A DNA stretch of 64,000 nt. Source: Lunularia cruciata (lineage: Eukaryota; Streptophyta; Marchantiopsida; Lunulariales; Lunulariaceae). The notes under the pieces were generated by a model. That model made no database searches, was not told where the DNA came from, and worked only from the letters and a program-made list of their open reading frames with translations. The position numbers and the translations under genes were made by a program. Shown here in pieces: positions 2,708 to 57,039 of the stretch. Where the stretch lies: positions 37,548,243 through 37,612,242 of the forward strand of contig OX419761.1 of assembly GCA_948567375.1 (NCBI GenBank), in the 5' to 3' direction. Within the stretch, counting starts at the first letter, position 1. Each line of letters opens with the position of its first letter.

Positions 2708-3420
2708 AATGAGTTTTAAGATGTCTTCTTGGATTATTTACCCTCAAGATTACCACCAAAAAAGAGAATAGATTATAAAATTGAGATACTTCTTGGGAAG
2801 ACACCTTCTTGTAAGGCCCCATGTCGACTATCACCTTATGAGTTAGAGGAGTGTAAGGCTCAAATCAAGGATATGCCATAAAAAAGGTTTATCCATCCCA
2901 ACATATCACCATATAAAGATCTTGTCTTATTTGTGAAGAAGAAGGATAGTATAATACGCATGTGCATTAACTATCAAAGTCTAAATCATCAAACAATGAA
3001 GAACAAATACCCATTACCTTGCATGGATGAGATGTTTGATCAACTCAACAGGGCAAAAAACTTCAACAAACTTGATATGTGGAGTGATTACATCCAAATC
3101 AAGATCATAGAGGAAGGTATACACAAAACTACCTTTCAAACAAGGTATGGTCACTTTGAGTACCTGGTGATGCAATTTGGCTTCACCAACACACCAACCA
3201 CTTTCATGAACTTGATGAATGACAAATTTTGTTTATACTTTGATAAATCTATTATTATTTTCCTTGATGAAATCTTAGTCTACAACATGATGATGATGGA
3301 GCACAAGCAACATCTACAAGAAGTCTTCCAGATTCTATGACAAAATCAATCATATACCAAAATCTCAAAGTGCAAGTTTGGCAAGTCTAAAGTAGACTAC
3401 TTGGGGCGTAGAGTAAGTGT
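2708..3420 (+). pseudogene. Ty3/gypsy reverse transcriptase relic
   Basis: The region starts with a DVFLDYLPSRLPP-type RT entry and PCRLSPYELEE. It then has an open stretch 2933-3340 with MCINYQSLN, KNKYPLPCMDE, KLDMWSDYIQIKI, TTFQTRYGHFEYLVMQFGF and FLDEILVYN. The family's catalytic Y/F-x-D-D box reads F-L-D-E, so the second essential aspartate is lost in addition to flanking stops. The domain copies element RNA into DNA in live relatives. It is followed directly by RNase H. Confidence 0.85.
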
Positions 3421-14119: not shown

Positions 14120-15670
14120 TAATATTTCTACCCCTCCCGCTAATAATTCTGAGTCGCCCGCTAAACAGGAGAGTTCTAAATTAGGTGACGAAGTTATAGG
14201 TCACGTGGGCATCCATCCATTGGTGGGTCGGAAATTCTATAGCAGTTGTGGAAGCCTCCGCTTCGGACCCTATTTTCTATGCTCATCACGCGAACCTCGA
14301 CAGGCTGTGGGACCTGGTGTGTACAAGTTACCCGGTGGAGAACGAGTTGATAACTCGGACCCAGATTATAATCTTTTGTCTCACCCTTGATGGGTCTCCA
14401 CATCCTTTATGTTTTCTACGCGGTTGTCGCCTTCTCGTGATTATCTAGAGCCGAATTTCTTTTCTACGATGAAACCGCGATTCCAAGAAGAGTTAAAGTG
14501 AAAGATGCTCAAAACAGGGAAGAATACTCGAGAAAGTGAACGATGCCGTGTGGATCAACTACAATCCAGCCACGAATTCTAGCACCCCTTCATCTCCAGG
14601 CTCATTCGGGCCGGTTGACGTTCATCTCCCGACAAGGTGGAACAGAGTGTGAGCTCACATAATTCTGTTCTATGCCTTGTGATCATAATCCATCCCGAGG
14701 GATTCCAGAATCAGATAAGCGACATTACCGTATGAATCGTGAGTGGAGAACCGAGGATGAGTTCTAAATAGTTTTTGGCGATTGACATAGGTTAGTCGTG
14801 AAATTGAAGAACGCACATTGCGTCGCAGGAGACTAATAGCCGAATCTGAGAAATAGATTCAAGATTCTTTAGCAATAAGTTATACACGTTACCAGGAGAC
14901 TTTATTAAATCAGAGGACCAGGGTGCAATTGGTTGATTCGTGAATAATGAATCAAGCTTAGCATCCTGTCACACGGTTGATTCGGTCTCGTATTCGGGGA
15001 TCGTTGAACGGGCAAATGGAAGGAGTTTGATCCGGGTCAGCGTTAGGTCTGCGTTTGTTTCTGAAAATGAATCGCAGTTTATGTTATGTACTGCATCGAA
15101 TGCTTCCTCACATCTTCGAGGCTCTTGTTAAATCAAAATTTCAGGAGTCTTATTCTCTACATTAGCTTTTCAGGGAGTGTCTAATTCATGACATCAGGTC
15201 ATAAGCAAAGTGGTGTTATCTGAGATGAGGTCATCACTAGGCTGAAGTTCCGCTCCATTCGAATGTGATAAGGAGGTAGGACATGCGAGCTACCTTAATC
15301 CTTACCTGAATTGACAATTGCAATAAATCACAGACGGTTCAGAGAAACATACGATCGTCAGCACGTCCCTCAATGGCACAACGCAGGGTGAAGGAAGTCG
15401 TGATATACCAAGTAAACGAGGTCCAGGGCACTTCCTTCGAGCTTCGAGTTCCAGCACCTGATTGAGCTCCTATACCAGATGCCTACTTCCAGGAGACACT
15501 TCATAATACACAGCCAAATTTAGGAAGGACGTGGAATCATCCCTTAATTTAGAATTTTCCAGTAGGGGAGTTCGGCGATATATTTAAGATTTATTATTAG
15601 AAATATTAGAAATATAATATAATTTTTAAATTTATTATAAATTACTTAAAATTTTAAATAAGAAAAGAAA
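14120..15670 (+). other. Copy 1-specific insert carrying the PPO relic
   Basis: Duplication copy 2 passes from its counterpart of 14100 almost directly to its counterpart of 15680 (near 31340-31380), so this block is an insertion in copy 1 or a deletion in copy 2. Apart from the polyphenol oxidase relic at 14186-14640, the remainder (14650-15600) holds short open frames only. One of these near 15400-15460 reads KEVVIYQVNEVQGTSFELRV and I could not assign it. Confidence 0.6.
14186..14640 (+). pseudogene. Polyphenol oxidase (tyrosinase family) fragment
   Basis: Frames joined across frameshifts give FYSS, then EASASDPIFYAHHANLDRLW (about 14250-14310). This is the CuB copper-binding signature of plant polyphenol oxidase, with its paired histidines and DRLW. 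Downstream, about 14452-14540 reads AEFLFYDETAIPRRVKVKD, the start of the plant-specific PPO1_DWL domain that follows the tyrosinase core. A 60 bp gap, an in-frame stop (REEYSRK then stop) and the lack of any CuA half mark it as a relic. Live enzymes oxidise phenols to quinones, usually in plastids or secretory compartments. It lies between the duplicated P450 flank and an unrecognised stretch. Confidence 0.75.
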
Positions 15671-17492: not shown

Positions 17493-19497
17493 CTAGATGG
17501 TCATACCCTCCTTGACATACACATGTGAGGGTAACCGAGGACGAATAAGAACTTGAAGTGGGCCCACTCTGGAGGCCGCAGGACCCTGTTTCTCTTCCAT
17601 TCCCAGCTCTTGGGGACTCATGGAATCTGGGAGAGAGATATCACAAGTGTGAAGAAGCTGGGCTAAAGCGTATTCTACTGTGATCAAGCCCAAGTTGTAC
17701 CCTGGACACATTCTTCTTCCAGAACCGAAAGGAAGTAGCTGAAAATGCTGACCTTTGGAATCAATGGAACTTCCCAAGAACCTGTCAGGATTGAAGTCTA
17801 ATGGGTTATCCCACACTCGAGGGTCCCTACCAATGGCGTAAACATTGACGAACACTCTCGTCTTCGCTGGAATATCATACCCCGCTGCTGTGGTGCTCAC
17901 ATCTGTAGAATGTGGTATCAACATCGGGACAACCGGGTGCAGCCGGAAGACCTCGTTCACCACGGCTTTGAGGTAGGGGAGGGCCGTAAGATCGTCCTCT
18001 TCCACTAGCCTTTTCTTCCCGACTACATCGTCGATTTCTTTCTGGGCTCTCTGTAGAACATGCGGATGTCGGAGGAGCTCGGACAACGCCCATGATACCG
18101 AACCTGAGCTGGTTGATGAAGACGCTATAATCACATCCTATCCAAATCAATACCCATAACAAAGTTAGTAATTGCATGCGGTATAAGCCTGCGCACCAGG
18201 TGCGCGTGCAAGTGTACATGTAACAGCTGAGACACTCATTGTAACAGATGGCAAATGTAGTTCTGTCGATTTAGAGCGGAATTATTCCATCCATACCATG
18301 TTTCGTACCTGAATAGCAGCTTTGATCAAGTCATCCGAAACAGGGTATTGCCCCTCTTCTTGCTTTGTCAAGAAGACATCCACAAAATCCTGCTCCGAAG
18401 GGCTTTTATATATGTGTCTACCATCTGCGTCGCGATGGTCAGCTAAGACACTGCTGTAGAATACGTCGAGGTTGCTCGCTAGTTTTCTGCAACGCGCTTT
18501 AGCTCTGAAATCCAAGAAACCCAAGGCCGGGAATAGGTCCCCAACCATAAAGAAACTTGTATCAGTGAGTAGTTCATGCATCAAAGACAGATATAGGTCA
18601 GCTCCATTTGTGACATCTTTACGTCTTGCACCATAAAATCTTTTCCGGAAGCAAAACTGAGTCGTTTGATTGAAAATCAACTCCGTAATCTTCTGATCGA
18701 TGTCCACGAACTCACCGCTTGAGCCTTCAGCCAAAATACTTTCGACTGAGTAAATAAGTTCTTCCCTCCTTATACTCTACACAGTTAAATCACACGAGTC
18801 TAAGTCAGTCTCAGATCGAATCATACAATGAAAATAAAATCTCAATTTGTGGAATTTTGCTTCAGAAGGAAGTGAGACTAAACTACACCTGCAGCGCCTT
18901 GCGGTTCTGAACCTCAATTTTTGCGTCTTGCGGCTCTCAACCTGAGATTTCTACATCGATATCGTTCCCAGTACAATCATGATGGAAATGATTGATACCT
19001 TAGACAAGAAAACGTGTTGATAGTACCTGAGCTTGTGCAAGTCGCTTGGCAGAAACAACTTCCGTAGAGATGGTTTTGCGCAAAAATCGCCATGTTTCAC
19101 CATTAGATACTGAGGTCGATTTACTTCCATAGGCCAACAGATCTCCCGCAATCATGTATGGGCGAGTAGAAAACTGATGATCTCAAGTTTGGAGAATCTC
19201 CCTCGCTGAATCAGGAGTTGACACAACTAATGCTGGAAATTGACCAATTTTCAGGAACATAATGTCTCCTTAAATTTTGGCCAGTTTTGCCAAGGACTGA
19301 TGAGGAAGGCCACTAAGCATATGCAAATTCCCAATCACGGGCAATTTTGGAGGACTAGGTGGAAGATGGAGAGTCTTATGGCCATTAAACATCCTGAAGA
19401 ACTGCTTGAAAATCAGAATTCCGATGACTGCGATCCATACCGTTCTGGATGAGAAGCTATTGAGTACGCTCCAGTCCCCGACATATGTTTCTCCCAT
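17493..19497 (-). pseudogene. Cytochrome P450, A-type, copy A (two nonsense codons)
   Basis: Three exons on the minus strand, 19497-19027, 18776-18309 and 18137-17493, with GT/AG ends and phase-0 joints, give a 527-codon frame, normal for a plant P450. Seen: N-terminal membrane helix (residues 19-35), proline hinge LPPSPPKLP, K-helix E-V-F-R (375-378), P-D-R-F (430-433) and haem loop FGSGRRMCPG with the cysteine at 457. Live enzymes are haem monooxygenases on the ER membrane. The frame has two stops in exon 1: codon 76 TAA where Y is expected before GDIMFLK, and codon 105 TGA where copy B has CGA. The I-helix reads ASSSTS, so the usual acidic residue is serine. Exons 2 and 3 are open. The assignment is firm for the family but not the substrate; it resembles CYP71-clan proteins. 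Confidence 0.9.
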
Positions 19498-31624: not shown

Positions 31625-33573
31625 CTAGATGGTCATACCCTCCTTGACATACACATTTGAGGGTAACCGAGCGCGAATGAGAATTTGAAGTGAGTCCTCT
31701 CTGGCGGATGCAATCCCCTGTTTCTCTTGCATTCCCAGCTCTTGGGGACTCATGGAACCTGGGAGAGAGATATCACAAGTGTGAAGAAGCTGGGCTAAAG
31801 TGTCTACTGTGATCAAGCCCAAGTTGTACCCTGCACACATTCTTCTTCCAGAACCGAAAGGAAGTAGCTGAAAATGCTGACCTTTGGAATCAATGGAACT
31901 TCCCAGGAACCTGTCAGGATTGAAGTCTAATGGGTTATCCCACACTCGAGGGTCTCTACCAATGGCGTAAACATTGACGAGCACTCTCGTCTTCGCTGGA
32001 ATATCATACCCCGCTAGTGTGGTGCTCACATCTGTAGAATGTGGTAACAACAACGGGACAACCGGGTGCAGCCGGAAGACCTCGTTCACCACGGCTTTGA
32101 GGTAGGGGAGGGCCCTAAGATCGTCCTCTTCCACGAGCCTTTCCTTCCCGACTACATCGTCGATTTCTTTCTGGGCTCTCTGTAGCACAGGCGGATGTCG
32201 GAGGAGTTCGGACAACGCCCATGATACCGAACTTGAGCTGGTTGATGAAGACGCTATAATCACATCCTATCCAAATCAATACTCATAACAACGTTAGTAA
32301 TTGCATGCGGTATAAGCCTGCGCACCAGGTGCGCGTGCAAGTATACATGTAACAGCTGAGACACTCATTGTAACAGATGGCGAATGTAGTTCTGTCGATT
32401 TAGAGCGGAATTATTCCATCCATACCATGTTTCGTACCTGAATAGCAGCTTTGATCAAGTTATCCGAAACAGGGTATTTCCCCTCTTCTTGCTTTGTCAA
32501 GAAAACATCCACAAAATCCTGCTCCGAAGGCCTTTTATATATGTGTCTACCATCTGCGTCACGATGGTCAGCTAAGACACTGCTGTAGAATACCTCGAGG
32601 TTGCTCGCGAGGTTTTTGCAACGCTGTTTAGCTCTGAAATTCAAGAAACCCAAGGCCGGGAAAAGGTCCCCAATCATAAAGAAAGTTGTATCAGTGAGTA
32701 GTTCATGCATTAAAGAAATGTATACGTCGGCTCCATTTGCGACATCTTTACGTCTTGCACCATAAAATCTTTTCCGGAAGCAAAACTGAGTCGTTTGATT
32801 GAGGATCAACTCTGTAATCTTCTGATCGATGTCCACAAGCTCACCGTTTGAGCCTTCAGCCAGAATACTTTCGACTGAGTAAATAAGTTCTTCCCACCTT
32901 ATACTCTACACAGTTAAATCACACAAGTCTAAGTCGAGTTCAGATCGAATCATACAATGAAAATCAAATCTCAATTTGTGGAATTGTGTTTCAGATAGGA
33001 AGTGAGACTAAACTACACCTGCAGCGTCTAAACCTCGAGAGTTTCCAGTACAATCATGATGTAAATAATTAACATCTTAGACACGGAAACATGATGGTAG
33101 TACCTGAGCTTGTGCAAGTCGCTTGGCAGAAACAACTTCCATCGAGATGGTTTTGCGCAAAAATCGCCATGTTTCTCCATTGGACATTGATGTCGATTTA
33201 CTTCCATAGGACAGGAAATCTCCCGCAATCATGTGTGGGCGAGTAGCAAACTGATGATCTCGAGTTTGGAGAATGTCCCTCGCTAAATCAGGAGTTGACA
33301 CAACTAATGCTGGAAATTGACCAATTTTCAGGAACATAATGTCTCCATAAATTTGGCCAGTTTTGCCATGGACTGGTGAGGAAGACCACTAAGCATGTGC
33401 ATGTTCCCAATCACGGGCAATTTTGGAGGACTAGGCGGAAGATGGAGAGTCTTGTGGCGATTGAACATCCTGAAGAACTGGTTGAAAATCAGAATTCCGA
33501 TGACTGCGATCCATATTGTTCTGGATGAGAAGCTATTGAGTACGCTCCAGTCCCTGACATATACTTCTCCCTT
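31625..33573 (-). pseudogene. Cytochrome P450, A-type, copy B (start lost, frameshift)
   Basis: Same three-exon layout as copy A: 33573-33104, 32905-32438 and 32266-31625. Exon 2 has the same length as in A. Exon 3 is 3 bp shorter (ITVDTLAQ versus ITVEYALAQ). Two lesions are seen. The initiation codon of copy A corresponds to AAG at 33573-33571, and exon 1 is 1 bp shorter (470 versus 471 bp). One A is missing from a run at about 33349-33354, which throws translation into a stop a few codons later. The rest is open and keeps K-helix EVFR, PDRF and haem loop FGSGRRMCAG. The I-helix again reads ASSSTSS, without the acidic residue. An internal ATG (MFLKIGQF) at 33337 could start an N-terminally truncated protein, which would lack the membrane anchor. 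Confidence 0.9.
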
Positions 33574-42132: not shown

Positions 42133-45060
42133 AGGTGTGGAAATTGAAGAATGTTAGGTATGTTCTAGGCTTGAAGAGGAATCTAATCTCAATTGGGAAA
42201 CTTGATAGTGAAGGGTATGTCACAACCTTTGTAGGTGGTTCATGGAAAATCCCCAAAGGCATTATGGTGGTTGCATGGGGAAACAAGTTGCGGACTCTCT
42301 ACTTGACAAACAACACCAAGTACACGGTGGCACTTGGAGACACAATATCAAATGGTACTCTTTGGCATTGCAGGCTTGAGCATATGAGTGAAAAGGGCAT
42401 GAAGGTGATGATGAAGAAGGACAAGCTACCAAATTTGAAAACCTTTGATGTAGGTTTTTGTGAAGATTGCATATTTGAGAAACAAGAAAAAGGTTAGTTT
42501 CTTGAAGAGTGGAATAGCACATAGGATAGGGAAGCTAGAGCTTGTACACACAAATGTGTGTACAAGCTTCTCTAGTTGCATCTCTTGGGGGTTCAAAATT
42601 TTATGTCACCTTCATAAATGACTCAACTAGGAAGGTTTGGGTATATTTCTTGAAGCACAAATTAGAGGTATTTGCCACTTTCAAGAAGTGGAAAAGCTTG
42701 GTTGAAAATAAATTGGGTGCAAAGCTAAAGCCACTAAAATCTAACAATGGTGGTGAGTATGACAATTGTGAGTTCAAGGAATTTTTTGCAGTACATGGAA
42801 TTAAAATGGAGAAGACCTTACCAAGCACACCATAGTAGAATGGAGTGGATGAGCACATGAATTGAACTCTAAATGAAAGAGCTAATATCATGAGGATCCA
42901 TGTTAGTCTTTCCAAGGTGTTTTGGACTGAAGCAATCAACATTGTATCATACTTGATCAACAGTGGTCCATCAGTTCCCTTAGACCATAAGTTGATTGAA
43001 TTGGAGTGGATAGGAAAACAGATGAGTTTGTTGTACTTGAAAGTCTTTGGGTGTGTCTCTAACGTGCATGTCAATGCAAGGAAAAGGACAAGTTAGATGC
43101 AAAGTCTAGGAAGTCTTTCTTTATTGGATATGGTGTAGATTAATTTGGGTATAAGTTTTGGGATGTAGAAAATAAGAAAATCATCAAAATCAAAGATGTG
43201 ATATTCAATGAGTGTCTTCTTTACAAGGATAGAAACACTCTGGATTTTGATAGTGTAGATGAGCAGAGCAAAGGAAGCAATAAATTTGAGTTGCAAAAGA
43301 TAACAAAAGAAGAGGTTATTGTAAGGGGTTCATGAAAACTGAAAGCTCAGAAACTACTCTACCACAACCTCAACCATGTGCATCGCAGTTGATTAGATCT
43401 ACAAGAATCACAAGACCACCAACAATGTATTCTCTCTCTACATTACTTGTTATTGATAGATGGAGGTGAACTTGAATGTTATGAAGAATTTATGCAAAAT
43501 GAAGACTCAATGAAGTGGGAGGTCATGAAGGATGAGATGAGGTAATCGGATAAAAATTCAAACTTGGGAGTTCAGCTTACTACCAAAAGGCAAGAAGGCA
43601 TTACATAACAAGTGGGTCTACAAGGTAAAAAAGTAACACAATGGTAGCAAACGATACAAGGCAAGGTTAGATGTGAAAGAATTCCAACAAAAGGAGGGGA
43701 TTTATTACACTGAGATTCTTTCACCGGTGGTCAAGCACTCAACAATTAGAGTGGTTCTCAATATAGTGGCAGCAGAAGACTTGTATTTGGAGCAAATGGA
43801 TGTCACTATTTCTTTTCTACATGGTGAGATTGATGAAGACATCTATGTACAACAACCTGTTAGCTTTGCAATCATTAGCAACAAGAGCTTGGTGTGCAAG
43901 TTGCAATAAAGGCTATATGGTTTGAAATATGCACCAGGTTTATGGTACAAGAAATTTGACAAGTTCAGATTCATGATCAATAATAGATTCACAAGATGTC
44001 ACAAGAACCATTGTTGTTACCTCAAAAACTCTTGATAATAGTTTTATTATCTTACTTCTATATGTTGATGACATGGTGATAGCTGGACCAAGCATAGAGG
44101 TTGAAGCATAGAGGTTGACAGATGGAAGAAAAAATATCAAGAGAGTTTGCAAATAAATACATGGGTGCAGCAAAGCAAAGATTTGGGCTGAAGATTGAAA
44201 GGGACAAGGTGGCTAGAACACTTAAGCTTGCTCAAGGTAGCTACATTGGAAAGGTGCTTAAAAGGTTCAACATGAAAAATGCAAATACTATGAAGACACC
44301 TTTGGTAAGTCCCGTTAAGCTATCAAAGGAATAGTTGCCCAAAAATGATGAAGAGTTGAAGGATATGTTAAAGGTACAGTATGCTTCAGTTGTAGGCAGC
44401 CTAATATATACAATGATATGTACTAGACCAAATATTGCACATGCAGTGGGAGTTGTGAGCATGTACATGGCCAATCCGGGAAGACAACATTGGGAGGTTT
44501 TCAAATGGATTTTTAGATATTCTGAAAGGTACCAAGGGTATAGGTTTTTGTTACAATAGAGATAACCACATAGTACAAGGTTTTGTGTATGCCGTACTAG
44601 GAGGTGATATGGATACTAGAGGAAGCACCACAAGTATGTTTATACTATAGGTAGTACAACAATGAGTTGGTTCTCACCGTTGCAAAAATTTGTTGCTTTG
44701 TCCTCAATTGAGACATAATATGTTGCAATTACAGAAGCTAGAAAGGAGATGATTTGGTTATAGAACCTTCTAAAGGAGCTAGGCAGAGAGCAAAATTATA
44801 GTCTTTTATTCTCATACAATCAAAATGTCATTCACTTAGCAAAGAATCTAATGTACCATGCTCAAATGAAACACATACAATTGAGATATAGTTTCAAAGA
44901 ATCTAATGTTCCATGCTAGAATGAACATAAACAGTTGAGATATAATTTCATATGGGAGTTACTTGAAAGAATCAAGGTGCCAAGAACTCTACTGATATGT
45001 TGGCAAAGATTGTCACTTCCAATAAGTTAAGGCCATGTATAGTATCAATTGGCTTCCGAT
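42133..45060 (+). pseudogene. Copia pol relic (pre-integrase to RNase H)
   Basis: GAG-pre-integrase: LKNVRYVLGLKRNLISIGKL and LWHCRLEHMSEKGMK (42135-42497). Integrase: KFYVTFINDSTRKVWVYFLK, LKSNNGGEYDNCEFKEFF and FHVSL..VFWTEAIN (to 43100). RT: YYTEILSPVVKHSTIRVVL, LEQMDVTISFLHGEIDEDIY and LLLYVDDMVIAG (YVDD at 44061-44072). A connection/RNase H-like end carries YASVVGSLIYTMICTRP and decayed later motifs. Frames are broken by about a dozen stops or shifts. The catalytic YVDD is intact. Confidence 0.9.
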
Positions 45061-53904: not shown

Positions 53905-56007
53905 GGTTAAAAAGAAGGATTATGTGTTGGAGGCTTACAGAAGAGAATTTTATACTCTCCATTCAATCAACGAATTAATCGTGCGTCTTCTCGACGGGAT
54001 TAAGGTGCAATCTATCTGGATTTTAACCAGTTTCTGAAATTAAATGAGAATTAACTCATACTAAAATCATATGGACCGGAGACAAAATCTTTGGTTTATC
54101 TTAAACTTTACGAGGAACACTAAATTGAAAGTTAATAACAAGGCGGCCTTCTTGATTCGACTTCTCATATCTTTGTAGACCTTATCTCAAATGGATCGTA
54201 TAAACGCTCTTCGATATCCATTTGAGAGAAGGTCTTTGATCCATTTGAGGAAAGGTCTACGATGAATGCACCTTTGAGTGCTTTGGTGTGTACGGCAAGA
54301 TCTCAAAGCACTCAAATCCTGTTTTCCCATAAGCTATGCAGATTTAGAAGTAATCAGAAGGAATGAAACTGTAGCACAGTTGTTTTTGTTGGCTCAGCTT
54401 CCTTCCGTCATGCTTACAAGTATGGTCGTCTTAGCTAGCGTCTTGGCTAATCCATAGAAAGCACTCCTCGTGTCTTTGTACCTAGTGTCGACAAGGATTT
54501 ACAGTTGACTCTTTTAACCTTTTCGCAAGTTCTAGGTGAGTATGTGGCTGGACAGCACACCAGTATTTCTCGCTGCATATGAAATCGGCCCACGTGGATT
54601 TGAAGTGTTTTTTTAAGTGTTGTGGTGTGCATATGGTTTCCTTCTGATGTTTAGATGAGTCTTGTGTTCGAGTTCCTGATGTGAAATCAAGCAGTTAGGA
54701 CATTCATGAGACAATCTACTAAAACGTTCACTATATATCTAGATGTCGATTGCGTTCAAGTGCAGCATTCGTACCTTTTTGCATCACAACGATTCATGAG
54801 GTGTAAACAGTCCGGAGTAGTGAGCATCAGTGCAACTGCTCAGAAGGTACAAATGGAGTAGAACAGAGTAGGTACAAATTTAGTAGGTACGTAATCTCAT
54901 TGTCCAAATTGCGCAGGAGGCGCGGGAACAGGGCAGGAAGGGCCTACTGAGTACCACCTCATCATTGCTGCTCTAAGACCTTCAATTTCCATGTAAAGAC
55001 TCTTCTTGTTTGTCGGTAATTGGCAGTTTGACGAGGCGGTGGTGTAGATAGACATGCAAACCAAGCATCAATTTTAAAGCTCTCAAGTTAGGTGGGCAAC
55101 CATAGAACGAGGAACTGAACGAGGACACTATAGGTCCCCGACAGTTTTTCAATCATTTGAGCTTGTAGAAGAGTTCAGATCAAGGCATCGGCGTAGATTG
55201 AGCTAACTTCAGTTATTAGTTCCACTCACCAGACTTGAAATTTGGAAGTCCCGAGACTACTGATGGTGGGGGTCCAGAGTACCCAACTCTGAGCTCCATT
55301 CCCAGCGAATCCTTCCCATCCATTTCCTGGATACCTACAATTCGATCATCTTGCCAGATCTTCGAAATTGGGCAATTTATGCACTCAATAACGGTTGCCG
55401 ACGGTGTGGTATTCGCCTCCAGTGCACGGATATCAACCGATTTGAACCGATAAGCTTTACCTCTTCATCTTTTCAGGGTGGTACAGTCTTGAACATTCTT
55501 CTGGCCACCGGGAGTTTTCATTTCGTCTGGTTAATATTTGCACGTTTGGTTTGATAGCAACGTGACTTCATTCGGGGTAACTTCTCAAACTTTTGTCTCT
55601 CCTAACCTGGTAATCAGCTCTCAAGGTCATACACTTATGCTATCAATTAGCAACGTCTTTCAATTTATGCTCGTAACTTCCTGGGGCCACAGAACGTAGC
55701 TTGTTCCTCGTTTACACATCAATCGCATTTCCCTGCTGCTAATCGATTGCTAGCTGAAATTATAACGGATTTCGGTGTGAGATGTCAAGGCTTCGGCGCA
55801 GAGCACATAGTCACGTTGACATGCTCAAAAAGAACAGGGTGTCTATGTACTCACACGATACTTTGCAACATGTCCACGGCATATATGTGATCTGACTGGA
55901 AGTGAATTCAGCAGTTTACGCAAGATGTTTTACTTATTCTGTTTATTTTCACTGGCAGGTTGTACATCTAGAGTTCTCTGAGAACGTGGACGAACGGAAC
56001 CACGTGA
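53905..56007. other. Unrecognised stretch before the GH16 gene
   Basis: Composition is balanced. Small open frames occur at 55235-55453 and 55351-55554 (plus) and 54447-54632 (minus). None was assigned. It may hold promoter and leader of the GH16 gene, or a first exon with a signal peptide, but no convincing donor site and exon was found. A CCATTTGAG..AAGGTCT repeat lies near 54217-54262. Confidence 0.4.
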
Positions 56008-56130
56008 CCCGGTATATCCCAGTTATACACAAGTAAGACTATAAACCCTTGTCTCGAATTCCACAGCTTCCACATTTCAGTATTGAAGGAACAGGAGAAA
56101 CCAGGCCAAGAAAGAGGAGTTCCTGGATCC

Positions 56131-57039
56131 ATGACTCGCGTCCAACCTGATGTGCTAAATAGACTGGGGGGAGTATGGGAGTGTCAGTTCTATGATGATT
56201 TCTCCGACCCCGCAACACTTGCCAACAACTACTTTCACCCATTCGGTGACTCGCATTGGAGAGAAAATCCAGCCAACAAGTGGAAGTGGGATGCACATTC
56301 CAACAAGGAGATCCATTGGGATTTCACGTGCTCAAGTACAGTCAAAGATGCAGAAGGTAGCCGTGTACGTATTTGTGTTTATTCTGATTGGTTCCATAGA
56401 ATAGATCGGCTTGCTACCAAACGAGTTTTCGGATATGGATATTTTGAAGCCAAAGTTCGCTTCAAAGGTGCCGAGGGTATGCACGCTGCTTTTTGGCTGC
56501 TTCCTGACAGCATTGATGATTCAAGGGTTTATCCAGCTGGGACCGTACCTGGAGGTATTGAAGTAGACGTTGTTGAGCATCGTCTAATGGATGGTTCGAG
56601 AAAGAATATAAATCACATCGGCAACACTTCCACCCACTGGAGTGGGTACGGACAAAACCATCAATCGGCTGCGTACAAGGAGATAAATTTGCCGCAAGGA
56701 GCTTCTCATTGGTGTACTTATGGTGTGCTACATGATGTCAGTGGCATCAAATGGTATTATGATGGACGCCTCGTGAATCAGACGATCGTAAACTCCTCAA
56801 CTCCAGCACACATATACTTCTCCACCGAGGTAAACGAAAGCGGTGGTTGGGCTGGAATGGACATGTCCAGCTACGGTTCGAAGAGTGATCCTGCAGGTTA
56901 TGTGGAGTGTTCCGAGGTTAGCTTCTGGACCAAAAGTTCAGGAACTTCAACTTCAAGTGGGAAAGGTCCGGACCATCTGATTCAATCAGCCAAGAAAATT
57001 GTGGATAAAGTTGTTGCTAGGATAGAGAAGTACAAATAG
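56131..57039 (+). CDS. GH16-family glycoside hydrolase, non-XTH type
   Basis: A 302-residue uninterrupted frame, TAG at 57037-57039. The catalytic motif E144-V-D-V-V-E149 fits the beta-bulge form E-x-D-x-x-E of GH16 enzymes (laminarinase, agarase and carrageenase relatives), where the first Glu is nucleophile and the last is acid/base. Other GH16 features: FYDDFSDP at the N-terminus, FGYGYFEAKVRF (100-111), AAFWLLP before the motif, HWCTYGVLH and WYYDGRLV after it. Plant XTH enzymes have H-D-E-I-D-F-E-F-L-G instead. A Ser/Thr linker (269-277) and an amphipathic helix (IQSAKKIVDKVVARIEKYK) end the protein. The start is the first in-frame ATG. No signal peptide is visible, and the frame is open upstream to 56008, so a missing first exon is possible. 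Substrate unknown; the bacterial or fungal-like character suggests transfer. Confidence 0.85.
   Translation: MTRVQPDVLNRLGGVWECQFYDDFSDPATLANNYFHPFGDSHWRENPANKWKWDAHSNKEIHWDFTCSSTVKDAEGSRVRICVYSDWFHRIDRLATKRVFGYGYFEAKVRFKGAEGMHAAFWLLPDSIDDSRVYPAGTVPGGIEVDVVEHRLMDGSRKNINHIGNTSTHWSGYGQNHQSAAYKEINLPQGASHWCTYGVLHDVSGIKWYYDGRLVNQTIVNSSTPAHIYFSTEVNESGGWAGMDMSSYGSKSDPAGYVECSEVSFWTKSSGTSTSSGKGPDHLIQSAKKIVDKVVARIEKYK

Follow-up and report, generated by a model that had tools for sequence, protein, structure and literature searches.

The window analysed here, a stretch of 64,000 nucleotides from the genome of the liverwort Lunularia cruciata, contains a GH16 coding sequence of 302 codons plus a stop, which runs from ATG to TAG with no break. 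The whole stop-free stretch around it spans 343 codons (56008–57036). The GH16 frame is the longest in the window, with a pair of P450 exons (213 and 212 aa) next in length, and the stop-free stretch exceeds the maxima obtained in simulated first-order Markov windows, which were 202 codons with the composition of the whole window (n=100) and 254 codons with the composition of 54–60 kb (n=100). An initial reading made from the letters of the DNA (hereafter, the sequence-only reading) had described an intact, long and intron-free frame. The length stood up to these controls, and the absence of an intron is a reading of the sequence, based on a frame that has no break and aligns with the orthologues over its full length. 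An alternative ORF of 318 aa, with an upstream TTG start at 56083, was also listed; the in-frame extension that it adds is probably non-coding, and the ATG at 56131 agrees with the start of the Marchantia polymorpha orthologue, which begins nearby in the alignment. The GC content of the coding sequence is 46.4% and its GC3 is 43.7%, the corresponding values for two P450 exons being 50.5–50.6% and 52.3–53.5%. Composition is uninformative here and carries no foreign signature, so it was discarded as proof of a foreign origin.

The GH16 frame had also been described as sitting next to a clearly plant gene. A plant P450 gene does lie in the window, but within the tested set of three ORFs plus 16 stop-free stretches out of 175, the nearest plant-type gene, represented by the P450 exon at 33080–33388, is about 23 kb from the GH16 frame, and copia-type retrotransposon pieces are nearer (Table 1). 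The two P450 copies are very similar, lie about 14 kb apart and apparently represent a duplication. The window also holds a fragment of the central domain of a tyrosinase (polyphenol oxidase), and an inverted repeat is found about 1.9 kb upstream of the GH16 gene. Regarding RNA genes, ARAGORN detected no tRNA in the window, and there was no Rfam match at gathering scores.

Table 1. Location of the features identified in the 64,000-nucleotide window
Feature	Position	Strand	Details
Retrotransposon piece	2882–3337	+	Reverse transcriptase, RVT_1
Tyrosinase central-domain fragment	14200–14445	+	PF00264
Cytochrome P450, plant-type, one copy	17493–18776	-	
Cytochrome P450, plant-type, other copy	31625–33388	-	
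Retrotransposon pieces, copia-type	42135–42494; 43637–43906	+	gag_pre-integrs and RVT_2
Inverted repeat	54170–54265		28-nt arms, 86% complementary, 40 nt apart
In-frame extension upstream of GH16, from TTG	56083–56130	+	No hydrophobic leader; orthologues begin near 56131
GH16 coding sequence	56131–57039	+	
Insert HWRENPAN	56254–56277	+	8 residues; common to liverwort proteins and P0017, absent in mosses and P0022
Catalytic strand EVDVVE	56560–56577	+	E144, D146, E149
WAG..YG motif	56848–56877	+	W240 to G249; common to bacterial relatives
Predicted C-terminal helix	56971–57033	+	Residues 281–301, outside the jelly roll in the AlphaFold model

The encoded protein matched the Pfam GH16 profile PF00722 at 8.8e-9 with a score of 35.5 bits, above the cut-off of 22; this was the only family reported by Pfam at E up to 0.001, XET_C being absent. 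NCBIfam returned three matches only, all far under their cut-offs. The E-V-D-V-V-E catalytic site highlighted in the sequence-only reading was located, and its three carboxylates are invariant in 22/22 rows of alignment A1 and in 14/14 rows of A2. Following GH16 chemistry, we take E144 to be the nucleophile, D146 the assisting residue and E149 the acid/base. Given the invariance of these carboxylates in all 22 aligned rows, catalysis is presumably preserved. XTHs belong to the ExDxE side of the GH16 split. Plant XTH and EG16 proteins (GH16_20) are GH16 members too, but plant XTHs combine the ExDxE site with an XET_C domain, and the window protein has neither; its site is ExDxxE. Viborg et al. 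(passages of PMC6827312) place the difference between ExDxxE and ExDxE among the earliest features that divide the GH16 subfamilies. An XTH (GH16_20) identity was accordingly rejected, as the sequence-only reading had anticipated in noting the lack of an XTH signature. Profile A5 matched 56 PDB sequences at E up to 10, and none of these chains was named as XTH, a result that alone excludes nothing. The sequence data support a microbial-type GH16, not an XTH.

In the AlphaFold model (pLDDT 89.7), the protein is predicted to adopt the GH16 beta-jelly-roll, and GH16 chains rank first in the fold comparison. The GH16_3 laminarinases, such as ZgLamC (4crq) and PtLam (8xph), share the beta-bulge site with the window protein, were the best solved-structure matches by sequence profile A2 and ranked high by fold. 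Their sequence similarity to the window protein is weak, its beta-bulge motif is compatible with GH16_3, and the fold scores do not separate laminarinases from agarases, lichenases or carrageenases.

A first protein search retrieved 23 matches among 524 candidates, comprising 22 plant-type proteins and one bacterial-looking protein (P0023). The closest were MPTK1_5g07570 of M. polymorpha (78% identity over 94% of the query), R1flu_027057 of Riccia fluitans (78%) and a protein of Calypogeia fissa (70%), while two proteins of Physcomitrium patens and two of Ceratodon purpureus represented the mosses, with 49–54% identity, further proteins ranking in between. These database proteins (MPTK1_5g07570, R1flu_027057, Ceratodon KC19_6G171500 and others; 49–78% identity) have the same catalytic site as the window protein and show no essential difference from it; their database entries read hypothetical protein or GH16-domain protein, with no assigned function. 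The orthologues of M. polymorpha, Riccia, Calypogeia and Ceratodon sit on contigs of 19–53 Mb, and the liverwort rows form one clade (100/99). The presence of named orthologues on such long contigs indicates that the GH16 gene is resident in the plant genome and rules out contamination, which the sequence-only reading had already considered unlikely.

P0017 and P0022 are divergent plant-type proteins that have several residues in common. P0017 carries the liverwort insert and groups with the liverworts in the 58-row tree described below (99/95), its placement not being resolved with 36 rows; P0022 lacks the insert. P0006 and similar proteins have a C-terminal extension (about residues 295–461 of P0006) that ends in a predicted long helix. 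The extension had no Pfam match, and its fold model (mean pLDDT 61.8) was too poor for a structure search.

A profile search then recovered 46 proteins from 6916 candidates. The 23 plant-type proteins were followed by a drop from 242 to 109 bits, by 18 bacterial-looking proteins (P0025–P0042) and by a tail of five weak matches, one of them named Subtercola lobariae. Inspection of 15 of the 18 sequences (all but P0035, P0039 and P0040) suggests planctomycete-like C-termini for P0025, P0026, P0028, P0032 and P0033, and a resemblance of the other 10 to Myxococcota lipoproteins or secreted forms. Scanning genome contigs with 13 bacterial-looking rows yielded 27 named loci (L001–L027), headed by those of Anaeromyxobacter, Opitutales, Chthoniobacteraceae and other Verrucomicrobia and followed by more distant GH16s. 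Two of the verrucomicrobial loci, L005 (2941–6342) and L007 (272–3673), encode proteins of 1134 residues in which the GH16 domain is followed by a carbohydrate-binding domain, CBM_4_9. In a third protein search, for which 7994 candidates were scored, the only organism names among the best 120 of 301 matches were those of bryophytes and Anaeromyxobacter. No vascular-plant, algal, fungal or animal name appeared among the matches listed, a minority of which carry an organism name, and the protein searches reach only proteins with short exact words in common. The bacterial proteins are the nearest non-plant relatives of the bryophyte GH16 among those found.

The GH16 proteins of the Anaeromyxobacter, Verrucomicrobia and planctomycete-like kinds are about 30% identical to the window protein and have the ExDxxE-HR, EV..WAG and WAG..YG motifs in common with it. 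We counted motifs in seven groups, namely the plant rows P0001–P0019, P0025–P0042, P0048–P0135, L001–L009, L010, L011–L027, and P0023 with P0043–P0047. In this order, E.D..E[HN]R was present in 19/19, 18/18, 87/88, 9/9, 0/1, 0/17 and 0/6 rows; EV..WAG in 19/19, 17/18, 85/88, 7/9, 0/1, 0/17 and 0/6; WAG..YG in 19/19, 18/18, 87/88, 7/9, 0/1, 0/17 and 0/6; and the looser [WY].GY in 19/19, 18/18, 88/88, 6/9, 1/1, 2/17 and 1/6. The E.D..E[HN]R count is biased in the L rows, EIDVVEHR being one of the two patterns that fetched these loci, and the agreement of P0048–P0135 is partly built in, since they were retrieved with a profile made of plant and bacterial rows. EV..WAG and WAG..YG were not used for fetching loci, and both are absent from the 24 more distant GH16s. 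Viral contigs were scanned twice, with 57 and 74 pattern matches; not one was confirmed as a relative, and a viral origin was dropped. A bacterial copy of the plant version was likewise sought in genome contigs, where none of 24 pattern matches was confirmed.

The main tree was built from 58 of 69 trimmed rows, and its chosen outgroup is not a clean clade. All 19 plant rows fall into a single clade (100/100), within which the window protein groups with the other liverworts (100/99). This clade is placed beside the Verrucomicrobia L005 and L007 (97/91) and joined next by L006, L009 and the planctomycete-like rows (95/86). Support is only 92/61 once Anaeromyxobacter and L004 are added, and 98/98 for the wider group with L010, L011 and P0023. 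The pairing of the plants with L005 and L007 is also recovered with 36 rows (92/86). The plant stem is very long, with 1.88 changes per column in the 58-row tree and 2.06 in the 36-row tree, so long-branch effects are possible. When the bacterial rows were kept together and apart from the plants, the cost with 36 rows was 7.3 log units (p-AU 0.133) or 6.2 (p-AU 0.184), and in a 43-row set the same separation had a p-AU of 0.112. In the free tree of the 43-row set, the plants and 16 chosen bacterial rows do not form one clade, and their grouping was not rejected (p 0.303). The plants nest among bacterial rows in the best trees, but the AU tests, at p 0.11–0.18, allow the bacterial rows to stand apart. 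The same tests do not fix a donor phylum, which in the best trees is Verrucomicrobia, and we refrain from naming one.

The bryophyte GH16 may alternatively be an old eukaryotic gene that was passed down vertically and disappeared from most plants, no transfer from bacteria having taken place at the base of the bryophytes. The very long stem and the AU tests, which allow the plants outside the bacterial rows, are consistent with it, and the trees were built with no XTH, fungal, algal or other eukaryotic GH16. We nevertheless regard it as unlikely, considering that the shared motifs, within the set of rows compared, occur in a single bacterial group, and that the matches listed contain no algal, fungal, animal or vascular-plant name, which is not proof given the minority that is organism-named. 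A bacterial ancestry of the bryophyte GH16 is likely on the sequence evidence, and we infer the direction of the transfer and its donor. The clade fits vertical descent within liverworts and mosses, and a transfer, if any, predates the split between the two. For the horizontal acquisition put forward in the sequence-only reading, the bacterial nature of the nearest relatives argues in favour, but the gene is not peculiar to the Lunularia genome, being common to liverworts and mosses. A plant-wide vertical clade had been named as the observation that would contradict an acquisition; half of that pattern was found, as a vertical clade whose named members are liverworts and mosses.

No hydrophobic N-terminal stretch was found in the window protein, in the in-frame upstream sequence or in 20 of the 23 plant rows, three of these 20 being shortened at the N-terminus. 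Such a stretch is present in the other three plant rows (P0019, P0020 and P0021) and, in a clear difference from the window protein, in 11 of 12 bacterial rows. The leader is absent in the complete liverwort orthologues and in most moss orthologues. The leaderless window protein is probably cytosolic, and the lack of a hydrophobic leader makes ordinary secretion, and hence a secreted antifungal role, less likely. A secreted antifungal or anti-algal beta-glucanase would need either a leader encoded by a hidden exon further upstream or an unconventional secretion route. The laminarinases among the closest solved folds, the three plant rows with a hydrophobic N-terminus and the induction of Marchantia genes of microbial origin upon fungal infection, reported in passages of PMC12890914, fit this possibility; we consider it improbable in view of the leaderless window, upstream sequence and orthologues. 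It is very unlikely that the GH16 domain has become non-hydrolytic, serving as an intracellular glycan-binding or scaffold protein that in some mosses is fused to a long-helix extension. The long stem branch, the leaderless protein and the predicted helix of P0006, taken from a low-confidence model, are compatible with such a role, but catalytic carboxylates invariant in 22/22 rows would be unexpected if catalysis had been abandoned.

We therefore favour, with reasonable but far from full confidence, the view that the bryophyte GH16 is an ancient bacterial gene, vertically inherited, that encodes a leaderless, cytosolic, retaining endo-beta-glucanase. A GH16 domain of the Verrucomicrobia, planctomycete-like or Anaeromyxobacter kind would have been taken up by the plant lineage no later than the common ancestor of liverworts and mosses, its bacterial export signal would have been lost after entry, and inheritance would have been vertical since. 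The enzyme would combine the beta-jelly-roll with a beta-bulge ExDxxE site and act by a retaining two-step mechanism, with E144 as nucleophile, E149 as acid/base and D146 assisting. Its substrate, guessed from relatives, would be a beta-glucan, the most probable linkages being beta-1,3 or mixed beta-1,3/1,4; a leaderless enzyme may meet it inside the cell or after cell damage. Catalytic activity, substrate, role and cytosolic location are all features that we infer. More tentatively, and at less than even odds, these proteins might constitute an unrecognised moss-liverwort GH16 subfamily that was obtained from a Verrucomicrobia-like or planctomycete-like bacterium, shed the signal for export and came to act on beta-glucan in the cytosol. 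If so, an enzyme class that is otherwise mostly extracellular would have an intracellular use, for example on an undescribed internal glucan or a wound-released store.

Among the literature matches listed, the titles and the beginnings of abstracts included no bacterial-type or transferred GH16 of bryophytes, the surveys of Yue 2012 and Ma 2022 lying outside this scope. Passages of related studies provide some context. The five GH16 proteins in the cell wall proteome of M. polymorpha are called endoxyloglucan transferases (PMC8792609), transfer is discussed for GH16_20 in the Zygnema genome papers (PMC11096116, PMC9915684), and the term GH16 does not occur in the passages of a review on plant transfer (PMC12448838). 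The transfer of a 'glycosyl hydrolase' (AANG004297) is mentioned in the hornwort genome paper, as is one family acquired from Verrucomicrobia, its passages leaving unspecified whether either is a GH16 (PMC7027989). GH88-type and terpene synthase genes have been reported as microbial acquisitions (PMC12890914). Like the proposed GH16, the GH88-type genes and the MTPSL terpene synthases have a microbial source and became fixed in early land plants or in bryophytes, but they belong to other protein families, and the window GH16 is absent from these passages (PMC12890914, PMC7027989).

The gene studied here is a real, intact and conserved bryophyte gene whose ancient origin is probably bacterial, not an isolated foreign gene. 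It is a further candidate for the set of microbial genes that became fixed in early land plants, and it shows that the GH16 proteins of bryophytes are not all XTHs. To our knowledge, no intracellular beta-glucan substrate has been described in bryophytes; should the protein prove to be cytosolic and active, the existence of one would be indicated. The presence of the orthologue MPTK1_5g07570 in a tractable model, Marchantia polymorpha, makes the substrate, location and role of this GH16 directly testable.
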